A DNA stretch of 64,000 nucleotides from Porticoccaceae bacterium. Its GTDB lineage: Bacteria > Pseudomonadota > Gammaproteobacteria > Pseudomonadales > Porticoccaceae. Both the position numbers and the translations under genes were made by a program. Of this stretch, positions 51,150 through 64,000 are shown piece by piece (position 1 is the stretch's first letter; each line of letters starts with the position of its first letter). The stretch spans positions 62,001-126,000 of the forward strand of contig JAJFKC010000030.1 in the NCBI GenBank assembly GCA_021773435.1, written 5' to 3'. Below the pieces are notes generated by a model, which saw only the letters and a list, made by a program, of their open reading frames with translations, was not told where the DNA came from and did no database searches.

Positions 51150-52079
51150 TTACAGACCTGCGTCCAGCTCGGGCAAGGCTTTGAATAGATCTGCTACCAG
51201 GCCGTAGTCTGCAACCTGAAAAATAGGCGCTTCCTCATCCTTATTAATCGCGACAATCACTTTAGAGTCTTTCATGCCAGCCAGATGTTGAATGGCACCA
51301 GAAATGCCCACGGCAATGTATAAATCAGGCGCAACAATTTTACCGGTTTGCCCAACCTGCATTTCATTCGGAACAAAACCTGCATCAACCGCAGCACGCG
51401 ATGCACCAACGGCGGCACCAAGCTTGTCAGCAACACTATAGAGTAAATCGAAATTGTCACCGTTCTGCATGCCACGGCCGCCAGAGATAATGATGCTGGC
51501 AGCGGTTAATTCAGGACGATCAGATTTAGCGACTTCTTCGCCGAGATACTCCGACAATTCGGCATTGTGGACACTATCAACAGCTTCGGTAGCAGCGCTA
51601 CCACCCTCTTCCGCCACCGGATCAAATGCGGTAGTCCGAACGGTCATGACTTTTATTGCGTCACTGCTTTGTACGGTGGCAATGATATTGCCCGCATAAA
51701 TAGGTCGTTGAAAAGTGTCAGGGCTATCAACACCGGATATCTCAGAAATAGGCTGAACATCCAGTAACGCGCCAACACGGGGAATAACGTTCTTGCCGTT
51801 AGTACTTGCTGGGGCCAAAATGTGGCTATAGTTAGCCGCTAACTCAGCAATTAGGGGCGAGACATTCTCCGTTAGCATAAATTCATAAACTGGATTATCT
51901 GCCACCAGCACCTTGCTGACACCAGTGATCTTGGCAGCTGCTTCACCAGCGGCCACACAATTTGCTCCAGCAATTAAAACATCGACATCGCCACCAATCT
52001 CACCGGCAGCAGCAATAGTATTTAGCGTTGCACCTTTGATTACACTATTGTCATGCTCTGCTATAACCAGAATACTCAT
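51150..52079 (-). CDS. etfA: Electron transfer flavoprotein alpha subunit
   Basis: This 309-residue protein begins [20 protein letters not shown] and has the C-terminal FAD-binding signature: [20 protein letters not shown] near residue 195, [20 protein letters not shown] and [20 protein letters not shown]. It forms a heterodimer with EtfB and takes electrons from acyl-CoA dehydrogenases. It overlaps etfB by four bases, so they are coupled. The hairpin at 51101 terminates it. Confidence 0.96.
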
Positions 52080-52828
52080 GAAATCACCTTGGCTTCGTTT
52101 TTCAGTTTATCAATCAGTTCTGCGACATCTTCTACCTTGACACCAGCCTGGCGTTCGGCCGGCGGTGCGGCTTTTAACAACGTTACACGCGGTGATGTGT
52201 CAACGCCCAGTTCTTCCGGTGTTGTGTTATCAATGGTTTTTTTCTTGGCTTTCATAATGTTCGGTAAGGATGCATAACGGGGCTCATTAAGCCTTAAGTC
52301 AGCCGTAATAACGGCAGGGAGCTTTAATTTTACCGTTTGTAACCCAGCATCTACTTCTCTGATCACAGTAACTGCATCGCCGTCGATGGTTATTTCTGAA
52401 GCAAATGTCGCTTGCGACCAACCTGTCAGAGCGGCGATCATCTGGCCGGTCTGGTTGTTGTCACCGTCGATGGCCTGTTTGCCCAGCAACACCATGTCTG
52501 GCTTTTCATTGTCGCAAATTGCTTTAAAACACTTGGCAATGGCCAACGGCTCTAAGTCGGTATCGGTTTGCACTAATATTCCGCGATCAGCACCCAGTGC
52601 CAGGGCCGTGCGAACCTGTTCCTGAGCGGACTGAGGGCCAACGGATACCGCGATAATTTCGCTGGCGATACCATTCTCTTTCATACGTACCGCTTCTTCG
52701 ACGGCAATTTCGCAGAATGGGTTAATCGCCATTTTGACGTTGGCCAGGTCCGGACCAGTATTATCGGATTTGGCTCGCACTTTGACGTTGTAATCCGCTA
52801 CGCGTTTTACGGCAACAAGTATCTTCAT
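52076..52828 (-). CDS. etfB: Electron transfer flavoprotein beta subunit
   Basis: This 250-residue protein starts [20 protein letters not shown] and has the ETF-beta signature [17 protein letters not shown] and the conserved [21 protein letters not shown]-binding stretch. The recognition-loop region is [17 protein letters not shown] near residue 185. It binds AMP and docks dehydrogenases. It has AGG seven bases before the ATG and is the first gene of the etfBA pair, divergent from ETF-QO with 254 bases between. Confidence 0.96.
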
Positions 52829-53082
52829 GAATTACCTATGCTAAATTATTGAAAATTAAGGTATTTATGCGTCGCATACTCTGCGAGCAGAAGCGTCCCA
52901 ATTTTGGGAGGCGACATGATGCCGCGCTGTCGATAAGAAATCAACTATTGCCCGGCCGCCGAAGAGTATCGCCGTGTCGGAATCAAAGATTCGCATTTTC
53001 TGTGGCGAGAAATCGGTGAAAACGCTAGAATTCGCGAGCATTTAAACGCTCAATTGATAATCGTTTTGTGGAGGATCACCCT

Positions 53083-54723
53083 GTGGAAAGAGAGTTTATG
53101 GAGTACGACGTCGTCATCGTCGGTGCCGGCCCCGCTGGCCTTTCTGCAGCGTGTCGGTTGCGCCAGCTGAGTGACGCACTCACCGTTTGCGTTGTGGAAA
53201 AAGGCTCAGAGGTCGGCGCCCATATTCTCTCCGGTGCGGTCTTCGAACCCACCGCCCTCAACGAGTTATTTCCTGATTGGAAGGCAAACAATGCGCCCTT
53301 AAATACAAGTGTTAATGGCGATGATGTTTATGTTCTGACAAGTGCCACTAAAGGCATAAAAGTGCCCTCATTGTTTGTGCCGAAAACCATGCATAACAAA
53401 GGCAATTATATCGTCAGCCTGGGTAATTTATGCCGCTGGCTCGCTGAACAAGCTGAGGCTTTGGGTGTGGAAATTTTTCCAGGCTTTGCCGCCTCAGAGG
53501 TGATCTATAACGATGATGGTTCAGTCAAAGGTATTGCTACCGGTGATATGGGTGTCGGCGCTGACGGAGAGCATAAGGACTCCTATATGCGAGGCATGGA
53601 GCTGCACGGTAAATATACGTTGTTTTCAGAGGGTTGCCGGGGCCATCTCGGCAAGCAACTGATTGCTAAATTTGGACTAGACGCAGGCAAAGATCCGCAA
53701 CACTATGGTATAGGAATCAAGGAGCTATGGAAGATTCATGATGATAAACATAAGAAAGGTTTGGTGGTGCATACAGCAGGTTGGCCCCTCGACGAGAGTA
53801 AGTCAGCGGGCGGCGCCTTTTTATATCACCTTGAAGATAATCAGGTGGCATTGGGTTTGATTGTGGATCTGTCATATAGCAACCCTCATGTCAGCCCTTT
53901 TGATGAATTTCAGCGCTATAAACATCATCCTGTTATCAGTCAATACCTGGAGGGTGGCGAGCGTATTTCCTATGGCGCCAGAGCTATAGTGAAAGGTGGT
54001 TTGCAGTCGCTGCCCAAAATGGCTTTCCCAGGTGGGCTGCTGATTGGTGACGATGCGGGCACTCTTAATTTTGCCAAAATCAAAGGCTCACACACTGCCA
54101 TGAAGTCCGGTATGCTCGCGGCTGAAGCAGCAGCTGAAGCGTTAAGCAAAGAACGTAGTGGTGATGAGTTGGTTGAGTACACCCAGGCTTATGAGAGTTC
54201 CTGGGCCCACAAAGAATTGCATTTGCAGCGCAACTTTGGTCCTGCGCAACACAAGTGGGGCAATATTCTTGGTTCGGCCTTTGCGTTTATCGATATCAAT
54301 ATATTCAACGGCAAACTACCGTTTACACTCCATGATCCAACGCCGGATCATGCGACCATGAAGCCTGCCAAAGATTGCAAGGTGATTGATTATCCGAAAT
54401 ACGACAACAAGCTAAGCTTTGATAAGCCGTCGTCGGTATTTTTGTCCAATACCAATCATGAGGAAGATCAGCTCTGCCATCTCACGCTAAAAGATGAGAG
54501 CGTGCCATTGGCGCATAATCTACCCGTTTATGACGAGCCTGCGCAACGTTACTGCCCAGCCGGTGTTTATGAGGTAATTGAAGACGAAGCCGGAGAAAAG
54601 GTTTTTCAAATTAACGGACAAAACTGTGTCCACTGCAAAACCTGTGATATTAAAGACCCATCGCAGAATATCGTCTGGGTGTGCCCGGAAGGTACTGGCG
54701 GGCCGAACTATCCGAATATGTAA
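53083..54723 (+). CDS. Electron transfer flavoprotein-ubiquinone oxidoreductase
   Basis: This 546-residue protein transfers electrons from EtfAB to ubiquinone. The FAD motif is VVIVGAGPAGLSAACRLRQL at about residue 10, the quinone region is near AHILSGAVFEPTALNELFP, and a C-terminal 4Fe-4S domain reads FQINGQNCVHCKTCDIKDPS. The GTG at 53083 (MEREFMEYDVV, the usual family beginning) has GGAGG eight bases upstream; the longer frame to 53068 covers that site and is unlikely. It is divergent from etfBA, as in many Gammaproteobacteria. It is a peripheral membrane protein. Confidence 0.96.
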   Translation: MEREFMEYDVVIVGAGPAGLSAACRLRQLSDALTVCVVEKGSEVGAHILSGAVFEPTALNELFPDWKANNAPLNTSVNGDDVYVLTSATKGIKVPSLFVPKTMHNKGNYIVSLGNLCRWLAEQAEALGVEIFPGFAASEVIYNDDGSVKGIATGDMGVGADGEHKDSYMRGMELHGKYTLFSEGCRGHLGKQLIAKFGLDAGKDPQHYGIGIKELWKIHDDKHKKGLVVHTAGWPLDESKSAGGAFLYHLEDNQVALGLIVDLSYSNPHVSPFDEFQRYKHHPVISQYLEGGERISYGARAIVKGGLQSLPKMAFPGGLLIGDDAGTLNFAKIKGSHTAMKSGMLAAEAAAEALSKERSGDELVEYTQAYESSWAHKELHLQRNFGPAQHKWGNILGSAFAFIDINIFNGKLPFTLHDPTPDHATMKPAKDCKVIDYPKYDNKLSFDKPSSVFLSNTNHEEDQLCHLTLKDESVPLAHNLPVYDEPAQRYCPAGVYEVIEDEAGEKVFQINGQNCVHCKTCDIKDPSQNIVWVCPEGTGGPNYPNM

Positions 54724-54863: not shown

Positions 54864-56081
54864 TCAGTTATTCGCGCGGGAAATCAATACGCCCTGCTCC
54901 GCCAGGCTACTTATCCTGTTATCGCTATAGCCCAACATATCGCCGAGAACATTCTTATTATGCTCGCCCAGGAATGGTGCCTCCAGAGGGAGGAAGTCAG
55001 GAAACTGTGAAAAACGCAGCGGTACACCGGGAATTTCCACCTTGCCAAAGCTGCGGTCGGTAACGGTTCGAACTGTATTACGTTCTTTTAAATGGGGATG
55101 AGCCATGGCCTGAGGAACCGTCAGCATAGGCGCCACTGGCACGCGATGCTCTTCCAGCACACGGATTGACTCTTCATCACTGGGCATTGACGCCAGCCAG
55201 CCTTCGATAATTTCAACCAGCTCAAAGCGATTTTCTACCCGAACACGAATATCTTTAAACTTGGGATCTTTAAATAGCTCGGGTTTACCCATGGCCTCAC
55301 ATAAATTTTCCCATTGGGTAATCATGGCGATAATCACAATTTGTGATGTTTTACCCTGGAATAGACCGAGAGGAGAGACTGCAAAGTGATGCTGTCCAGA
55401 ACGGGAAGGCTCGATATTGCCATCGCTGGCGCTATACATTTGCACGTTGATTTCGTGGCAATGAAAATATGAATCGAGCAGAGATATATCTAGATACTGT
55501 CCGTTGTGACCACGCTCTCGATGGAATAGCGCGGCATTTATTGCCGCTAGAGCATGAACGCCTGTATTAACGTCACCCAAACCGAGCATGGGCAAATAAG
55601 CGGGGCCATCAGCCTCACCTATCATGCTGGTCACTCCAGAATAGGCCTGGGCGATATAATCAAAGCCAGACAGTTTCGCCAATGGGCCGGTCTGACCAAA
55701 TGCCGATAGCGAGCACATAATCACTTCCGGGTTGATGTCATGGACAGTATCCCAATCGAGGCCGAGCCGTGCGATAACCCCTGGCGAGTAATTCTCCATT
55801 ATGATGTCCACATGGGGCACAATTTCTTTGATAATTTCTTTAGCCTCCGGCTTGCTGAAATCCAGGCACAAGCTCTGCTTGCCGCGGTTTTGCTGAATAT
55901 AGTAAGCGCTGCGTTTGTCTTTGATATAGCCCACACCGCGCACTGGATCCCCATGAGGCCCCCACTCTACCTTGATAATGTCAGCGCCCATTTCAGCCAT
56001 TAATCGCGTGGTGGTTGGCCCGGCAAGGTACTGTGTAAAATCGAGCACTTTGATCCCATCTAATACGTGTTTTACTGCCAT
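54864..56081 (-). CDS. Class III CoA-transferase (CaiB/BaiF family)
   Basis: This 405-residue protein shows the family's ordered features: VLDFTQYLAGPTTTRLMAEM at the start with ADIIKVEWGPHGDPVRG, the active-site region GLGDVNTGVHALAAINAAL near residue 170 with the catalytic Asp in GDVN, and SGFDYIAQAYSGVTS before it. It moves CoA between acids, in acyl-CoA activation. GGGGAAAGAG precedes the ATG. It is the last gene in the minus-strand catabolic group, 205 bases downstream of the SDR gene. The substrate is unknown. Confidence 0.9.
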   Translation of the reverse strand: MAVKHVLDGIKVLDFTQYLAGPTTTRLMAEMGADIIKVEWGPHGDPVRGVGYIKDKRSAYYIQQNRGKQSLCLDFSKPEAKEIIKEIVPHVDIIMENYSPGVIARLGLDWDTVHDINPEVIMCSLSAFGQTGPLAKLSGFDYIAQAYSGVTSMIGEADGPAYLPMLGLGDVNTGVHALAAINAALFHRERGHNGQYLDISLLDSYFHCHEINVQMYSASDGNIEPSRSGQHHFAVSPLGLFQGKTSQIVIIAMITQWENLCEAMGKPELFKDPKFKDIRVRVENRFELVEIIEGWLASMPSDEESIRVLEEHRVPVAPMLTVPQAMAHPHLKERNTVRTVTDRSFGKVEIPGVPLRFSQFPDFLPLEAPFLGEHNKNVLGDMLGYSDNRISSLAEQGVLISRANN

Positions 56082-56286
56082 CTCTTTCCCCTTTTAGTGG
56101 TATTTGCAAGAACTGTCATCTATCAAAACTGGTCAGCCGTCGGGCTTTACAAGATTTTATCTGGACGCTTCTATTAACCTCAATTATTGACCTCAATCCG
56201 TTGCCCTTTGCCTCTGACTAATTGCCTGGTTAAAGCACTATTATTTGACAAATGTAAGCGATCATATTGATGAAACTAGCATAGCA

Positions 56287-57048
56287 CTATGCTGGCATAT
56301 ACATACCGCCATTGACATGCATCGTCTGGCCGGTAACGTAGGACGAACCCTCGGACATAAAAAAGGCAGCAGCTTCTGCGATCTCTTCAGGCTTACCAGG
56401 CCGCTTCATAGGAATGTCTTTTCCCAGATTTTCAAAAAATTTGTCGGGAATTGTGCTCCGCAAACCTTCATGCATAATCAAGCCAGGAACGATGCAATTG
56501 ACGGTAACACCATAGCGGGCGAGATCCTGAGCTAATGAGCGGCTGTAACCCAGCACGCCAGCCTTGGCGGCAGCATAACTCCCCCAGTCCCGGGGTGGGT
56601 TGTAAGCAGCGCTAGAGGAAAAATTAAGAATCCGACCAAAACCAGCATCGACCATAGACTTTGAAAATGCACGTGACATATAAAAAGACCCGTACATATT
56701 GACCTTAATAACGCGATCCCAGGTTTTGGTGTCGTAGTCCCAGGCCTTACCAGGCCCTTGAATGCCGGCGTTATTAATCAAGTAGGCAATGTCAATACCT
56801 CTCTGCGCTAACTCGGTAACGACTGCCTCGACATGTTCCTCTTTAGTAACGTCGAGGGGAAACAAGGTCACCATTTTGCTTTGCTCTGCATCAAGTTCTT
56901 GCTTTCGCCAACCATCCAGTTCATCAGCTTTGCGATCACACCCGATCACGGGAATGCCCTGACTAATTAATTTTTTGGTCATGGCTGTACCGAGACCACC
57001 AATAGCCCCGGTTATCAAGGCATGGCCCCTCTCTATTTCTCTAGTCAT
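56287..57048 (-). CDS. Short-chain dehydrogenase/reductase
   Basis: This 253-residue SDR has the coenzyme motif ALITGAIGGLGTAMTKKL (TGxxxGxG), the NNAG segment INNAGIQGPGK near residue 95, and the active site with SSSAAYNPPRDWGSYAAAKA (Ser, Tyr and Lys in YAAAK) around 145-165. It would interconvert a hydroxyl and a keto group, probably using NAD(H), as Asp follows VIGCD. AGGAGC lies five bases from the ATG. It is on the same strand as the CoA-transferase and the thiolase-like group, so a beta-oxidation-type or side-chain pathway is plausible. Confidence 0.9.
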   Translation of the reverse strand: MTREIERGHALITGAIGGLGTAMTKKLISQGIPVIGCDRKADELDGWRKQELDAEQSKMVTLFPLDVTKEEHVEAVVTELAQRGIDIAYLINNAGIQGPGKAWDYDTKTWDRVIKVNMYGSFYMSRAFSKSMVDAGFGRILNFSSSAAYNPPRDWGSYAAAKAGVLGYSRSLAQDLARYGVTVNCIVPGLIMHEGLRSTIPDKFFENLGKDIPMKRPGKPEEIAEAAAFFMSEGSSYVTGQTMHVNGGMYMPA

Positions 57049-57862: not shown

Positions 57863-58331
57863 TTACAACGCTAATTGCCTTGCCGCCAGATCCCGCATTA
57901 TTTCTTCCCAACCACCATCAATGGCGTAAACACAGACTTCTCGACAGATTCGCTCGACCTTGTTAGCACGCATAAATCCCATACCAACAAATATCTGCAC
58001 CGCTTCACGGGCGCACCGATAAGACTTGCGACCGGCACTCGGCAATTATCGAAATGCAGGCTCTCCGTGGCTTTGAGATTGGCAATATTAGAGCCAGCCG
58101 CTCTTTCATCGCTTTGCTGCGAAGGGCGAGTATAGGGGCGTACCGATAGTATGACTGCCCAGGCTGATATGAACACCAGCGCCGCAGCTTTCTTATATAG
58201 GTCGCGCGGAAAAATACCTGCCTCTTCCCATTCATCGATGTTGGTCGCAATTTTTTTATCGATAAACTGTCGCAGTGCGCAGCGCCAGGCTTCGTGATCC
58301 TAGTTGGAGTACTGCTCTGACGGCAGATCAA
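57863..58331 (-). pseudogene. Acyl-CoA dehydrogenase pseudogene with large internal deletions
   Basis: Three separate parts of an acyl-CoA dehydrogenase survive in different frames on the minus strand. An N-terminal part reads HEAWRCALRQFIDKKIATNI and DEWEEAGIFPRDLYKKAAAL (about 58300-58170). A middle part reads NLKATESLHFDNCRVPVASL (about 58090-58020). A C-terminal part reads AVQIFVGMGFMRANKVERIC and GGWEEIMRDLAARQLAL (about 58010-57863). Together they would span only about 150 codons instead of about 380, so most of the FAD and substrate regions is lost. It lies within the MaoC/thiolase-like catabolic group, where an active dehydrogenase would be expected. Confidence 0.82.
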
Positions 58332-58427
58332 ACCACGGTCAAAAATTGTTTAATCCCGTATCAGTGCTCCAAATCAGTCAATTAACCGTCGGCTACACAA
58401 CCTTCTCACATTTAGCATCCAGCGGCG

Positions 58428-58874
58428 TTATTTACGCGGTAATTCCAGGGTTAATTGGGCTGGCACGCAAGGACCGGAGCCTGTAGAAATCATGATAGAT
58501 ATATCTACTAACGCGCGCTCGTCCTGCGCGTAATGCTTTTCTACTTTGCCCTCACCAACCATGGTATCGCCGGCATAAATTGAGGCGCGCATATTCATGG
58601 CGCGTTTTCGAATAAAGGTATGAGGGCCGGCCCAGTCTGTTGCGACTCTATCAATAAAGCCTTCGATAGCCATGGTGTTGAGATAAATATTTTTTTGGCC
58701 CTGGTGCTGTGCATAAGCGGGATTATGATGGCCGGGAAAATAGTCCTGAGTGGCAGCCGCATCGAGAATAACTTTTTCAAAAGGCACGGCCATTTCGACA
58801 CGTGGCAGCACCTCCCCTTCACTGATTTCGTCCCAATATTTATAAGCGATTTGTTTGGTCGTTTGTTCGGTCAT
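58428..58874 (-). CDS. MaoC-type hotdog dehydratase subunit
   Basis: This 148-residue single-hotdog protein has the hydratase region DAAATQDYFPGHHNPAYAQH (Asp and His of the active site), followed by QGQKNIYLNTMAIEGF, which is similar to subunit ChsH1-type MaoC proteins. It probably pairs with the 184-residue neighbour, whose stop overlaps its start (ATGA), to make a heteromeric enoyl-CoA hydratase. It lies in the group with DUF35 and thiolase-like genes. The substrate is not known. Confidence 0.85.
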   Translation of the reverse strand: MTEQTTKQIAYKYWDEISEGEVLPRVEMAVPFEKVILDAAATQDYFPGHHNPAYAQHQGQKNIYLNTMAIEGFIDRVATDWAGPHTFIRKRAMNMRASIYAGDTMVGEGKVEKHYAQDERALVDISIMISTGSGPCVPAQLTLELPRK

Positions 58875-59425
58875 GAGTTTTCCTCTGGCGTTTTTTCTTC
58901 AGGCACATAGTAGCGAAACATATCGTTAGTCGTGACGGCGATTAGCTCGCTGTTCTGATTGGTAAATTCAGCGCGGGTAGTGAGAAAATGGCCGACACCC
59001 AAGCGGGTGCGTTTCTCTTCGCTTACCTGGACCAGACAATCAACAGCATATAAGCGATCACCTAAAAATAAATGACGATGGAATTCAGTACTGGTAGCAA
59101 CGTTGATTAAGGTGTCGCCTGGAAGCGGTATTTTCATGGCAACAAAATAATGCTGGCGATTTTTATCGGGATGCCATTGCAGGGCCATGCCCCAGGTCAA
59201 CAGTAAGCCCGGCGGGGCAACAATGCCGCCCCATTGTTTAGTGGCATATTCTTCATCCCAATAGCTTGGGTTGGGATCTTCCTCCATGGCGCAATAGACC
59301 TTGATCATTTCCCAGTTGACGGTGAACTCGGCGTGAATGGGGTCACCCTTTACGCCGACCAACTTAAGAGCATCTTCGTAACTGCCATACTCAAGGGGAA
59401 ATGGCACGGTAAATTCTTCTGTCAT
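58871..59425 (-). CDS. MaoC-type N-terminal dehydratase domain protein (partner subunit)
   Basis: This 184-residue protein is the MaoC_dehydrat_N (FAS1-like) type of hotdog: NWEMIKVYCAMEEDPNPSYW, then GGIVAPPGLLLTWGMALQWH, where the PP(G/T)xxx motif is typical. It lacks the Asp-His catalytic pair seen in its neighbour, so it is probably the non-catalytic half of a heteromeric hydratase, as in ChsH1-ChsH2. It overlaps the 58428 gene by four bases. It follows the DUF35 gene by 27 bases. Confidence 0.85.
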   Translation of the reverse strand: MTEEFTVPFPLEYGSYEDALKLVGVKGDPIHAEFTVNWEMIKVYCAMEEDPNPSYWDEEYATKQWGGIVAPPGLLLTWGMALQWHPDKNRQHYFVAMKIPLPGDTLINVATSTEFHRHLFLGDRLYAVDCLVQVSEEKRTRLGVGHFLTTRAEFTNQNSELIAVTTNDMFRYYVPEEKTPEENS

Positions 59426-59452
59426 TTTTAATTTCCCGGTTTTATTGTCGGA

Positions 59453-59884
59453 TTAAATCGTGGGTTGAAATTGTGGGATTTTCATATCACCACGTGCTTC
59501 GAAGGTGACTTCGACAGGCATATCGACACTAACCGCATCGACCTCGCAGTTGATTATATTGGTCATCATCCGTGGGCCTTCGGTCAGCTCTATCACCGCG
59601 AGAACATACGGTAAGTCTTCCTGGTACGAAGGCAATGGTGACTGGTGGATTACCGAAAAACTGTAGACCTTGCCCTTGCCACTGACATCCTGCCAGGACA
59701 GACCCTGATTAAAGCATTGTGGACACCACAGACGAGGATAGTAAAAACATGCCTCACACTGGTTACAGTATGGCAGGCGCAGTTTGCCCTCGGCACAACC
59801 TTGCCAAAGTGGTCCGGCCCAGGGTGTGATTTTGGGCTGGGGTTTCGCGGGTATCGAAGCACTGGATTGGGAATTCTCATCCAT
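59453..59884 (-). CDS. DUF35 zinc-ribbon/OB-fold protein
   Basis: This 143-residue protein has a rubredoxin-like zinc ribbon (LPYCNQCEACFYYPRLWCPQ, two CxxC pairs) and then an OB-fold (GKGKVYSFSVIHQSPLPSYQ, PYVLAVIELTEGPRMMTNII). DUF35 proteins bind thiolase-like partners and acyl-CoA. In steroid degradation the DUF35 part of ChsH2 pairs with the aldolase Ltp2. Here it stands immediately downstream (70 bases) of the thiolase-like gene at 59955, a fitting partner arrangement. Confidence 0.88.
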   Translation of the reverse strand: MDENSQSSASIPAKPQPKITPWAGPLWQGCAEGKLRLPYCNQCEACFYYPRLWCPQCFNQGLSWQDVSGKGKVYSFSVIHQSPLPSYQEDLPYVLAVIELTEGPRMMTNIINCEVDAVSVDMPVEVTFEARGDMKIPQFQPTI

Positions 59885-59954
59885 ATTAAACCTCTCGTTC
59901 CTGTCTGTTTAGCTATAAAAATTGGTTTTTGATACTAAAATAAGTGAGATTCAA

Positions 59955-61130
59955 TTAAGCCTGACGGCCAAGAATTAAGGTTGAATGCTCGCTCATCATG
60001 CCGCCGTATGAATGGACAATGCCGACATCAGCTTTGTTGAGCTGACGTTCTCCGGCAAGGCCCATAATCTGTCGGGCACCTTCGACAATCATCGACATAC
60101 CTGATGCATCTCCTGTGTGACCATAACTCAACAGACCACCGTAGGTGTTGACCGGGAAATCACCACCGGGACGACTGGCACCGGATTCAAAAAACTCCCC
60201 GCCTTTGCCCTTTTCACACAGCCCCAGGTCTTCCATAAAAACCAGAGGGTTGACTGAGAACGCATCATAGATTTCGGCAAAGTCGATATCCGATGGAGTC
60301 AAACCGGTGCGCTGGTAGGCTTGTTGTCCGGCGTAACGGCAACCGACATTGGTCAGGCTCGGTGCCTGATGTATATTGCGATGACTGTGATATTCGCCCA
60401 TACCCAACAAGTACGCCGGTTGATTGCTAAAACGTTTGGCGACCAATTCAGACGTCACCAACACTGCCGCACCCCCCTCTACAGGGATGGAGCAATCGAA
60501 AAGATGAAATGGCGTTGCGATGGGCCGTGAGCCTCTGACCGTTGCAACGGTCAGAGGCTCACTATCGTACATAACAGCATCGGGATTCTTCAGTGCCCAC
60601 TCTCTCGACGACACCGCGACTTCGGCAAATTGTTCTGGCGTGGTGCCGTATTCGAACATATGTCGCGAAGCCACCTGCGCGTAAATTGCAGGAATAAACG
60701 TGCCGTAGGGGAATTCGTAAATTTCATGACTAACCATGCGTGCCATCAACTCAGCGCCACCGGTGCCAACTTTGGGAAACTTACCCGCACCCAGACATAA
60801 CACACTATCGGCAACACCCTGTTTGATCGCCAGCGCGGCACGTTGCACCATCAAACCGTAAGTTGAACCACCCGCATTCATCGTGTCGGCAAAGAGAGGA
60901 TGAATGCCCAATTCCTCATAGAGCTGCTCGTGGACAAAAATATCATTGCTACCCCCTTCTGCCATACCTGATGGACAGGCCAGTAGCCCTTGTATATCAG
61001 ATGGTTTAACCGACCACTCGGCGAGAAACTGACGCACCACGTCGAGATAAAGGTCGAAGCCACTTTTGTCCGGGTACCGCCCCGGCTTCATTTCTGACAC
61101 AGCCGCGATAGCGACGGGATTAGACATCAT
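59955..61130 (-). CDS. Thiolase-like protein (SCP2/Ltp2 type) lacking the nucleophilic Cys
   Basis: This 391-residue protein has the thiolase fold (TPSDIDFAEIYDAFSVNPLV near residue 280; YGGLLSYGHTGDASGMSMIV near 335), but the segment where thiolases have CxxGS is MNAGGSTYGLMVQRAAL, with Asn instead of the Cys, and the C-terminal Cys site is SYGGMMSEHSTLI. It therefore is unlikely to do thiolysis. The Ltp2 family of retro-aldolases has such changes and works with DUF35 partners. Two Met codons start it (61130 and 61127) with GGGAG at four or seven bases. It is the first gene of the catabolic run. Confidence 0.85.
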   Translation of the reverse strand: MMSNPVAIAAVSEMKPGRYPDKSGFDLYLDVVRQFLAEWSVKPSDIQGLLACPSGMAEGGSNDIFVHEQLYEELGIHPLFADTMNAGGSTYGLMVQRAALAIKQGVADSVLCLGAGKFPKVGTGGAELMARMVSHEIYEFPYGTFIPAIYAQVASRHMFEYGTTPEQFAEVAVSSREWALKNPDAVMYDSEPLTVATVRGSRPIATPFHLFDCSIPVEGGAAVLVTSELVAKRFSNQPAYLLGMGEYHSHRNIHQAPSLTNVGCRYAGQQAYQRTGLTPSDIDFAEIYDAFSVNPLVFMEDLGLCEKGKGGEFFESGASRPGGDFPVNTYGGLLSYGHTGDASGMSMIVEGARQIMGLAGERQLNKADVGIVHSYGGMMSEHSTLILGRQA

Positions 61131-61366: not shown

Positions 61367-62323
61367 ATGAAAAGTTGGATATGGACGGTGATTGTCGTCG
61401 TGATGATTGCCGCAGGCTCCTATGCCTTTTATATTTTCACGCTGCCTGCCGAACTTGAGGATGGCTTCCTCTACGGCAATGGCCATGTCGAAGGTACTGA
61501 GGTGAATATCAGCGCTGAAGTCACCGGACGAGTGCTGGAAACCAACCTGGTGGAAGGCAAAATAGTGGCGAAGGATTCGCTGCTAGTCGCACTGGATACC
61601 CGGGATAATCTCGCTCGTCTGGCCATCGCTCAGGCCAATGTCGATGCCCTGAAAATTGAACAGCAGCGCTATGTTGAAGACCTGGCGACCTGGCGCGAAC
61701 TGTTCGCTACTGCCGAACGAGACCTAAAGCGCTACACCGAATTGCGCGAAAGAGGCATTGTCACTATCCAGAAGCTCGACCAGATTACCAATGTTCATCG
61801 AGAGGCACTGGGTAGAGTCCGCGCCCTTACTGCTCAGGTCGGTGAAACCAGAGCTCGTACCACCGTTGCCGAAAAAGAAGCCGAGCTGCTGCAAATTGAT
61901 GTTGATAAGGCCAGGATTAGCACCCCGATGGATGCGACCATTCTGGCCAAAGGTATCGAATTAGGCGAGCTGGCTGTACGCGAAAGTCTGGTCGCGGTGC
62001 TGGTAGATATGGACGATCTGGAGTTAAAGGTCTACCTACCCGAAAAAGTTATCGGCAAAGTGAAGCTTGATGCTCCGTGTAAAGTGCAGGTGAGCGCTTT
62101 TGAAGACAGATACTTCGATTGCCGTGTCAAACGGGTCGATCAACGCGCCCAGTTTACGCCGCGAGATATCAACATGCCCGAAGAACGAGTTCGTATGGTG
62201 TTTGGTGTCGTCCTGGCCCTGGCTAATTCAGATGGTTATCTAAAACCCGGCATGCCTGCCGATTCCTGGATTCGCTGGGACGAAAGCAAGGCCTGGCCGA
62301 CCAGCCTGGTGGTACCTCGTTGA
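61367..62323 (+). CDS. HlyD-family membrane fusion protein (YhiI-like)
   Basis: This 318-residue protein has an N-terminal membrane helix (about residues 3-25, SWIWTVIVVVMIAAGSYAFY), a lipoyl-like domain (GHVEGTEVNISAEVTGRVLE, first half), a coiled-coil hairpin (RDLKRYTELRERGIVTIQKL, EKEAELLQIDVDKARISTPM) and a beta-barrel with ELAVRESLVAVLVDMDDLEL, ending LKPGMPADSWIRWDESK. Such adaptors join inner-membrane exporters to an outer-membrane channel. It is 66 bases before the double ATPase gene, in the YhiI-RbbA type order, so the substrate is probably a drug or metabolite. Confidence 0.9.
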   Translation: MKSWIWTVIVVVMIAAGSYAFYIFTLPAELEDGFLYGNGHVEGTEVNISAEVTGRVLETNLVEGKIVAKDSLLVALDTRDNLARLAIAQANVDALKIEQQRYVEDLATWRELFATAERDLKRYTELRERGIVTIQKLDQITNVHREALGRVRALTAQVGETRARTTVAEKEAELLQIDVDKARISTPMDATILAKGIELGELAVRESLVAVLVDMDDLELKVYLPEKVIGKVKLDAPCKVQVSAFEDRYFDCRVKRVDQRAQFTPRDINMPEERVRMVFGVVLALANSDGYLKPGMPADSWIRWDESKAWPTSLVVPR

Positions 62324-62389
62324 TGGCTGCTTTGCTAAAAAGGCACGCTCACAGCGTCATATTCGCCGGGTCGCTAGCAGCCTATTGTT

Positions 62390-64000
62390 ATGAACGCTTC
62401 TGAAGAATTGACCGCACCACCTTCCGCTGACGATACAAATGGCCTGGAAGGTGTGATTGTCACCCAAAATCTTTGCCGTGCCTACGGCGATAAAACCGTG
62501 CTGCGAAACGTTAACCTGTCTATCAAACCGAGTGAGATTTTCGGCTTACTGGGCCCTGATGGTGCTGGCAAAACCACCTTAATGCAGGTGATGGCGGCGA
62601 TTCTTGATCCCACTGAAGGCAGTTGCACTGTTATGGGTCACGATTCGGTGAAAGAGGCGTACTGGGTTAATTCCCATATCGGATACATGTTTCAGGGCTT
62701 TGCCCTATACGATAAATTATCCATCGAAGAAAATATGAGGTTTTCGGCAGATATTCGCGGCCTGTCCCGAGATGTCTTCGAAAGTCGTCAGGAACGCCTC
62801 TTAAAGATGGCTGGGCTGTTTAAGTTTTTGAGCCGCCCTGCTGGTAATTTGTCCGGGGGCATGCGTAAGAAATTATCTCTTTGTACCAACCTGATCCATG
62901 AGCCACGGCTGTTGCTGCTTGACGAACTCAGCCTCGGTGTTGACCCCGCTTCGCGCAAAGAGTTGTGGGATATGCTCCATGAATCGAGGGATGATGGGGT
63001 CAGTATTGTGATCAGCACGCCCTATATGGACGAAGCGGAGCATTGTGATCGACTGGCCTTTCTCCACGAAGGTGAAATCCTGGCCGTGGATACGCCTGAA
63101 AGCCTGCACAGGCGTTGTACCGGCCACGTTTACGAGCTAAGCACCGATGATCGGGGCGCAGCACATAATGCATTGGTAGCTCACCAGGACACTTTGAGTA
63201 TTCGTCATCTAGCTGAACGTGTACATTTTCAATTGCATACAGAGAATCATATTGCAGAAGATCTTGAAGCAGCGCTAAAACAGAACAATGGTGTTATCGA
63301 ACCCGTATCCTCGTCCCTGGATGATGCCTATACCATGCTCAGCGGCGGCGAGAAAAGTTCTGCCTATGCCGAGCGACCACCGAAAATCCATTTGCCGGAG
63401 CGGTTGCCGGAAGGCGGCCGTATTCGCACCGAGGGGCTGACGGTGCGCTTTGGTGATTTCGTCGCTAATGACCATGTCTCACTGGAAATTCGTCCCGGTG
63501 AAGTGTTTGGCTTTCTCGGCGCTAACGGCGCGGGGAAAACCACGTTTATTCGTACGCTCTGTGGCTTGCAACCGATTACCGAGGGCGACGCCTGGATTGG
63601 CGGAGTGAGTATTCGTAAAGAACATCGACGACTGCGCAACCATATTGGTTATATGTCCCAACGCTTTTCCCTCTACCCGGATTTAACTGTCGCTGAGAAC
63701 CTGAATTTTTTTGGCGGGATTTATGGTCTCAACCGCAGCGACCGGAAAAAAGCTATCGATTGGACCGTGAGTGTCACTGATCTGGGTGATGTCAAAGATA
63801 ACCTGGTCGCAGATATGTCCGGTGCCTTAAACCAGAGGCTGGCCCTGGCCTGTGCCATCATGCATGAGCCGGAGGTGGTTTTCCTTGATGAACCTACCTC
63901 AGGTGTCAGCCCCGCCGCCCGCTATAAATTCTGGCAACTGATTCAAACCCTGGCCGAAGTCGGCACCACTATCTTTGTCACCACTCACTATATGGAAGAA
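62390..64000 (+). CDS. RbbA/YhiH-like ABC protein with two ATPase domains (N-terminal part)
   Basis: 537 codons are visible before the window ends with the frame open. The first ATPase has Walker A GPDGAGKTTLM, signature LSGGMRKKLSL and Walker B LLLLDELSLGVDP, where DEP is replaced by DEL. The second has Walker A GANGAGKTTFI, a degenerate signature MSGALNQRLALA and Walker B VVFLDEPTSGVSP, with TTHYMEE as H-loop. Two fused ATPases followed by a permease are normal for RbbA/YhiH. The permease lies beyond the window or in the rest of this protein. It forms an exporter with the HlyD-like protein. Confidence 0.9.
   Translation, partial: MNASEELTAPPSADDTNGLEGVIVTQNLCRAYGDKTVLRNVNLSIKPSEIFGLLGPDGAGKTTLMQVMAAILDPTEGSCTVMGHDSVKEAYWVNSHIGYMFQGFALYDKLSIEENMRFSADIRGLSRDVFESRQERLLKMAGLFKFLSRPAGNLSGGMRKKLSLCTNLIHEPRLLLLDELSLGVDPASRKELWDMLHESRDDGVSIVISTPYMDEAEHCDRLAFLHEGEILAVDTPESLHRRCTGHVYELSTDDRGAAHNALVAHQDTLSIRHLAERVHFQLHTENHIAEDLEAALKQNNGVIEPVSSSLDDAYTMLSGGEKSSAYAERPPKIHLPERLPEGGRIRTEGLTVRFGDFVANDHVSLEIRPGEVFGFLGANGAGKTTFIRTLCGLQPITEGDAWIGGVSIRKEHRRLRNHIGYMSQRFSLYPDLTVAENLNFFGGIYGLNRSDRKKAIDWTVSVTDLGDVKDNLVADMSGALNQRLALACAIMHEPEVVFLDEPTSGVSPAARYKFWQLIQTLAEVGTTIFVTTHYMEE

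Follow-up and report, generated by a model that had tools for sequence, protein, structure and literature searches.

A conserved four-gene unit of a Porticoccaceae bacterium predicted to pair an acyl-CoA hydratase with a retro-aldolase, probably for a non-steroid substrate

We analysed a stretch of 64,000 nucleotides (the window) from a Porticoccaceae bacterium (assembly GCA_021773435.1, contig JAJFKC010000030.1, positions 62,001 to 126,000) that contains four adjoining genes for a thiolase-fold protein resembling acyl-CoA aldolases, a separate DUF35 protein and two MaoC proteins, MaoC_N and MaoC_C. Judged from their sequences, these genes probably encode a variant of the systems in which a hydratase and an aldolase shorten steroid side chains; it would work in the same way on another substrate. 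We estimate at roughly 0.6 the probability that the four genes form a hydratase and retro-aldolase unit whose substrate is probably not a steroid. Aldol cleavage by a thiolase-fold protein devoid of the nucleophilic cysteine and paired with DUF35 is described for steroid side chains in the open-licence PubMed Central (PMC) papers that we found, and our search for other tertiary-alcohol retro-aldol routes returned steroid work only. The genes, and the remnant that follows them, are:

59955..61130, minus strand: thiolase-fold, Cys-less acyl-CoA aldolase-like protein of 391 amino acids (aa), with Gly88 at the nucleophile position, a Tyr288-Asp-Ala290-Phe motif and His338
59453..59884, minus strand: separate DUF35 protein of 143 aa, with a zinc ribbon (C40-x2-C43-x10-C54-x2-C57) and an OB fold
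58871..59425, minus strand: MaoC_N, a putative non-catalytic, ChsH2-like partner of 184 aa, with Asp50 kept and Tyr55 in place of the catalytic His
58428..58874, minus strand: MaoC_C, a putative catalytic, ChsH1-like hydratase subunit of 148 aa, with an Asp44/His49 dyad
57866..58353, minus strand: decayed acyl-CoA dehydrogenase (ACAD), with stops, frame changes and large internal losses

The four frames are open and lie in this order and at these coordinates, as a preliminary description of this DNA had reported. They are separated by a gap of 70 base pairs (bp), a gap of 27 bp and, finally, a 4-bp overlap. Their spacing would fit co-transcription, to which promoter and terminator scans added nothing, the number of hits being no higher than expected by chance (9 found vs 11.0 expected and 7 vs 7.1, respectively).

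The four genes occur together and in the same order in 16 of the 116 genomes examined, including the window's own (G000; hereafter G numbers denote genomes and L numbers loci). These carriers belong to three genera (G000-G005, G010, G016, G021, G026, G029, G033, G036, G039, G041 and G045). Between the window and G001, dN/dS (NG86) was 0.034 for the aldolase, 0.033 for MaoC_N and 0.053 for MaoC_C, values that are rough because dS was 1.3-2.6. In most comparisons with G003 and G004 dS was saturated, including both of those made for DUF35, which was compared with these two genomes only. At least three of the four genes, those for the aldolase, MaoC_N and MaoC_C, look constrained by this measure. 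Since the order is the same in 16 of 116 genomes and dN/dS is 0.03-0.05, we consider that the gene set is not a product of chance. A MaoC_C search of the same 116 genomes matched 40 of them at E ≤ 0.001. Three genomes, G092, G075 and G093, were discarded as carriers: they possess the MaoC pair (MaoC_C identity of 68, 49 and 46%, respectively), but the stretches read showed no window-type aldolase or DUF35 match beside this pair, and the highest aldolase scores in these genomes were 310, 218 and 248 bits. Scanning GTDB with the aldolase alignment, a procedure that relies on two peptide patterns, yielded 18 loci. Of these, 17 are labelled Porticoccaceae, Pseudomonadales, Cellvibrionales, Gammaproteobacteria or Deltaproteobacteria, the remaining one just 'bacterium'; as most of them apparently lie on the same contigs as the 16 carriers, they do not represent a second sample. 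Our simple calling of open reading frames (ORFs) missed genes lying under overlapping frames (DUF35 in L051, L052, L065 and L066; MaoC_C in L057, L065 and L066; all module genes in L063), which were recovered by further searches.

The nucleophilic cysteine of SCP2-type thiolases is absent from the window aldolase. It had been proposed that an asparagine replaces it; alignment with the three Cys-bearing paralogs of the same genome (L048-L050), which have their cysteine at this position, placed Gly88 there and ruled out Asn85. Of the catalytic tyrosine pair of Ltp2, also invoked in the preliminary description, the window protein retains one member, Tyr288, and has His338 in place of the second. 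According to the accessible portions of PMC12329534, the catalytic residues are Tyr294 and Tyr344 in TcLtp2 and Tyr302 and Cys304 in CtSal, which has Gln352 at the place of Tyr344. Tyr288 corresponds to the base Tyr294 of TcLtp2 and Tyr302 of CtSal, and is found in all 36 Cys-less rows of our 39-row alignment; the 3 Cys-bearing rows all have His at this position. At position 338 the Cys-less rows have His (29) or Tyr (7), CtSal and its Gln lying outside the alignment, and His338 occurs in the window protein and its 15 aligned orthologs where Ltp2 has Tyr344. The YDHF motif of Ltp2 is preserved in its Tyr288-Asp part, with Ala290 instead of His as third residue, and this same alanine stands where the YDCY motif of Sal has its catalytic Cys, which is absent. 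L070, a member of the Ltp2 clade encoded beside a fused ChsH2 in a KshA-bearing genome (G099), also has YDAF, together with Tyr at 338. We infer from these alignments that this residue is variable in the group and that the second catalytic function would sit at position 338. Cys213, a candidate for an alternative active-site cysteine, is conserved in the aldolase as well.

In a phylogenetic tree of 41 rows, from which L052 was left out, the window protein fell in a clade of 20 rows (support 100/99), apart from Ltp2 and Sal: TcLtp2, L069 and L070 made up a separate three-row clade (support 100/100) and CtSal a long lone branch. The 20-row clade includes two Myxococcota-labelled rows as well as plasmid proteins of Cupriavidus necator N-1 and Sphingobium herbicidovorans. 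On one tested residue for each, and on its clade, the window aldolase is classed as neither Ltp2 nor Sal. Pfam assigned it to Thiolase_C_1, with weaker matches to Thiolase_C and Thiolase_N. The best or near-best PDB matches of the aldolase and DUF35 were the solved aldolase complexes 9MYR and 6OK1, along with thiolase complexes. An AlphaFold2 model of the aldolase (pLDDT 78.4) retrieved 4U4E, 9MYR, 6ESQ/6ET9 and 6OK1 as best Foldseek matches, and its VIA Z-scores were 38.0-43.7 in the top 27 rows, which comprise DUF35-paired, SCP2-type and similar proteins, and 30.9-32.4 in the rest. The Sphaerobacter thermophilus protein 4U4E, which is also the best PDB match by sequence (E 1.9e-73), has YDSF and a His at the 338 position, but it falls elsewhere in the tree and is named only as a putative thiolase.

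The window's genome (3.4 Mb) encodes 12 thiolase-like proteins, nine of which lack the cysteine by alignment (the window protein, L039 and L041-L047). A DUF35/OB-fold ORF adjoins eight of these nine (BLAST, E ≤ 1e-6, simple ORF calling). With the same ORF calling, no DUF35 neighbour was seen for any of the three Cys-bearing paralogs, one of which adjoins a 147-aa ORF without assignment. The Cys-less paralogs are possibly several different aldolases.

The window DUF35 matches the Pfam families OB_ChsH2_C (E 7e-25) and zf-ChsH2 (E 3.5e-8), and its four ribbon cysteines are invariant in 7 aligned rows. This Cys4 ribbon is the canonical form of TcChsH2 and others, and Shy has a Cys3His1 version (accessible portions of PMC12329534). 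DUF35 is indeed a separate protein, with its own ORF in all 16 carriers; MaoC and DUF35 halves share one ORF in L034 and L070 (detected by a profile hidden Markov model) and in L069 (read from the sequence). We rejected the idea that a separate DUF35 is in itself the novelty, as it forms its own chain in several PDB complexes and, in the accessible text of PMC12502768, the MaoC and DUF35 halves of the TA441 protein retained both activities when expressed apart. Since the separated halves stayed active, the natural split should be no bar to function. The residues likewise fit the division of the MaoC pair into a catalytic and a non-catalytic member, with D44/H49 in MaoC_C and D50/Y55 in MaoC_N, where the catalytic His has changed to Tyr as it has in ChsH2 (accessible portions of the Shy paper, PMC11321319). 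MaoC_C had no Pfam match at 1e-3 and matched ChsH1 in the PDB (E 4e-12), a chain that two entries label differently, one as ChsH2 and the other as ChsH1. MaoC_N matched the Pfam family FAS1_DH_region (E 1e-15) and, weakly, ChsH2 in the PDB (E 1e-4); its single-chain model was poor (pLDDT 65.5).

Homology and gene content support a relationship with both the ChsH1-ChsH2-Ltp2 and the Sal-Shy systems. Since there are homologues related to steroid breakdown, the parallel drawn earlier is not contradicted on that ground. The igr/Chs-Ltp2 system (PDB 6OK1, 4W78, 4WNB) has the same parts list, including the ACADs present in most carriers, and shares the His in one subunit only of the MaoC pair, the Cys4 DUF35 and the base Tyr. 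The window unit differs from it in its unfused DUF35, in the residues at Tyr344 and at the motif His, in the separate clade of its aldolase and in that KshA was not found in the carriers. The Sal-Shy system of Comamonas testosteroni (PDB 9MYR) resembles the window unit in combining a thiolase-fold aldolase with DUF35 and a MaoC hydratase, in the Gly at the nucleophilic Cys position and in the base Tyr, but it has one MaoC-DUF35 protein where the window has two MaoC proteins, and Cys304, Gln352 and a Cys3His1 ribbon where the window has Ala290, His338 and a Cys4 ribbon. The benzoylsuccinyl-CoA thiolase BbsAB (7PXP) also combines a separate DUF35 subunit with a thiolase-fold one, although BbsB is a thiolase. 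A proteobacterial igr-like set, ORF40-44 of Comamonas testosteroni TA441, has a naturally fused MaoC-DUF35 and was shown to act on the cholic-acid side chain, as given in the accessible portions of PMC12502768.

From gene content, conservation, residues and clade we infer a complex, a chemistry and a type of substrate. By analogy with ChsH1-ChsH2, MaoC_C and MaoC_N would form a heterodimer with one active site, in which Asp44 and His49 of MaoC_C would add water to an alpha,beta-enoyl-CoA and MaoC_N would accommodate a bulky acyl group. With the separate DUF35 as its partner, the Cys-less aldolase-like protein would next cleave the beta-hydroxyacyl-CoA, yielding a short acyl-CoA together with a ketone or aldehyde. 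Such C-C cleavage, already suggested in the preliminary description, agrees with the homology and gene content. Tyr288 would accept the proton of the beta-hydroxyl, and a second residue would protonate the enolate; we propose His338 as this acid because it stands at the place of the Ltp2 acid Tyr344 and the Sal acid Cys304 is Ala290 here. The double bond would probably be made by the ACAD that stands behind the unit in relatives; because this ACAD is broken in the window's genome, another dehydrogenase would have to serve there. One guess at the substrate is an acid, branched or cyclic, that arises when hydrocarbons or aromatics are degraded. More tentatively, the unit may represent a third catalytic class of DUF35-paired acyl-CoA aldolase, in which a Tyr/His pair (Tyr288, His338) takes the place of Tyr/Tyr (Ltp2) or Tyr/Cys (Sal), together with a split ChsH1/ChsH2-like hydratase acting on a non-steroid bulky or branched acyl-CoA; we consider this a possible assignment without favouring it.

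An unlikely alternative is that the four genes are a steroid or bile-acid side-chain module of the igr/Chs-Ltp2 type, with the ring pathway located elsewhere, unrecognised or absent. This would fit the igr operon content found here (ACADs, ChsH1, ChsH2-like MaoC, DUF35 and Ltp2-like aldolase), the Cys4 ribbon, which is that of the Ltp2 partner and not of Shy, and the two ACADs in a row of six carriers, as the igr system has two dehydrogenase subunits. However, the aldolase lies outside the clade of TcLtp2 and its two relatives from KshA-bearing genomes, and none of the 16 carriers has a match to KshA_C (PF19298) at E ≤ 0.001 or to HsaC (NF045631, family cut-off 450 bits) at E ≤ 1e-80, which speaks against the steroid role implied at first. 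KshA_C matched 30 of the 116 genomes, 29 of them over the cut-off, the window's own genome not being among them. HsaC at E ≤ 1e-80 matched 15 genomes, all among the 30 with KshA and none over the family cut-off; the best HsaC score seen in the window's genome was 221 bits. Fisher tests gave 0.011 for KshA (0/16 vs 30/100), or 0.0058 with G092 counted as a carrier (0/17 vs 30/99), and 0.13 for HsaC (0/16 vs 15/100), values that overstate the evidence because the carriers come from three genera only. The 14 control genomes gave no clear positive for either enzyme. Since KshA and strong HsaC matches were not found in carriers, steroid use via the known aerobic route seems unlikely; side-chain removal alone or another ring route could remain. 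As the active-site residues differ as well, the real substrate is probably not a steroid.

The window's genome also encodes a catechol 2,3-dioxygenase and five meta-cleavage enzymes above curated cut-offs (L105, G000 C36:14000-33999), next to which lie, below cut-offs, a biphenyl-2,3-diol-type extradiol dioxygenase, a DapA-like aldolase and a ferredoxin reductase; we take this aromatic cluster to be naphthalene-type. A p450 search of the same genome gave two matches. At L107 (14629-18941, minus strand), two 579-aa amidohydrolase-like frames stand close together on a contig that also holds an HsaC-like extradiol dioxygenase and a CoA-transferase. A literature search on Porticoccaceae and steroids led to PMC8269228, whose accessible portions have no bearing on the substrate question.

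It is similarly improbable that the thiolase-fold protein carries out another reaction of its superfamily (acyl transfer, Friedel-Crafts-like acylation or decarboxylation), with the MaoC pair serving synthesis or some other route. Both the fold and the pairing with a separate DUF35 chain recur in PhlC, the HMG-synthase complex and BbsB, and the Cys or His of the Sal and Ltp2 motifs is Ala in the window protein. Nevertheless, the nucleophilic Cys that underlies thiolase acyl transfer, which has a role in PhlC and is carried by BbsB, is Gly88 here, and the linkage of its gene to an ACAD and a hydratase pair points to breakdown.

The ACAD lies directly behind MaoC_C in 14 of the 15 other carriers. 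It is full length (392 aa) in 10 of the 15, the six carriers with two in a row being among these; the copies in L052, L065 and L066, loci at or close to a contig end, are incomplete. What is left in the window is a series of ACAD pieces that shift frame and contain stops, spanning ~490 bp where 1179 would be expected; among the other ACADs found in the genome, none is more than 38% identical to this gene. The G001 copy is damaged by a frame change and a TAG, possibly an assembly error. In G003 no ACAD stands behind the unit, but an intact copy (86%) lies on a different contig, which shows that ACAD and unit are separable. Three of the six genomes in the window's genus (G000, G001 and G003) have an ACAD that is ruined, damaged or displaced; to judge from these copies, the gene has become detached from the unit inside this genus. 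There is little to recommend the idea that the module is decaying, no longer works in this genome and is used by relatives only: the ruined ACAD without a close replacement and the damaged G001 copy would agree with it, but the four genes are open, the aldolase and both MaoC genes have the low dN/dS values against G001 given above, the motif residues are kept and G003 shows that the ACAD is separable.

Several points weigh against a hydratase and retro-aldolase unit with a non-steroid substrate. In CtSal, the C304A change abolished activity (accessible portions of PMC12329534), and Ala290 could accordingly mean a dead or different enzyme; the YDAF of L070 counters a simple transfer of that result. 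The loop with His338 has a pLDDT below 50 in the aldolase model. The KshA contrast rests on three carrier genera, the 16 carriers not being independent. With its cognate ACAD broken, the pathway could be failing in the window's organism. Some neighbouring genes could fit ordinary beta-oxidation: a short-chain dehydrogenase/reductase (SDR; 56287-57048) and a CoA-transferase near the unit in the window; behind the unit of G002 (L055), a CoA-transferase (CaiB, spread over two frames) and a fragment resembling an SDR (59%, residues 141-251); and, in another genus, a Zn-alcohol dehydrogenase-like gene that precedes the aldolase in five of six carriers. Overall, the neighbours give no clear pointer to the substrate.

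If the retro-aldolase reading holds, a conserved relative in genomes without detected steroid-ring enzymes would widen the substrate range of this chemistry, and the Tyr/His active site, if true, would offer a simple mutational test of the change from thiolase to aldolase. The case would also warn that gene order alone is insufficient for naming such clusters steroid genes.

The unit common to all carriers contains no hydroxyacyl-CoA dehydrogenase, a point in favour of the hydratase and retro-aldolase reading. The SDR and the CaiB gene (54864-56081) were left out of its core, without being disproved as parts of it. In G010 both lie on contigs other than that of the module, and G049, at 82% completeness, has both (86% and 79%) without a close MaoC_C match. 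At ≥45% identity neither turned up in 14 of the 15 other carriers within the stretches read, several of these stretches being short or ending with the contig. In favour of a core role are the copies behind the unit in G002 and a distant locus (L088) with adjoining CaiB- and SDR-like genes.

The class III CoA-transferase and SDR (window 54864-57048, minus strand) also occur together at G001 C85, a contig other than that of the module, and at G049 C87. In L088 (6973-14127), from a distant bacterium, two CaiB-like genes, an aldolase, DUF35, MaoC_N, MaoC_C and an SDR-like gene stand in a row. Frames resembling, by eye, electron transfer flavoprotein (ETF) subunits and ETF-quinone oxidoreductase occupy window positions 51150-54723, and the same clusters lie beside the module in L062, from another genus. 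Divergent from the module, window positions 61367-64000 and L040 192-2417 encode an HlyD-like protein, an ATP-binding cassette (ABC) ATPase and two ABC-2-like permeases (by eye), and the same clusters are found in L051.

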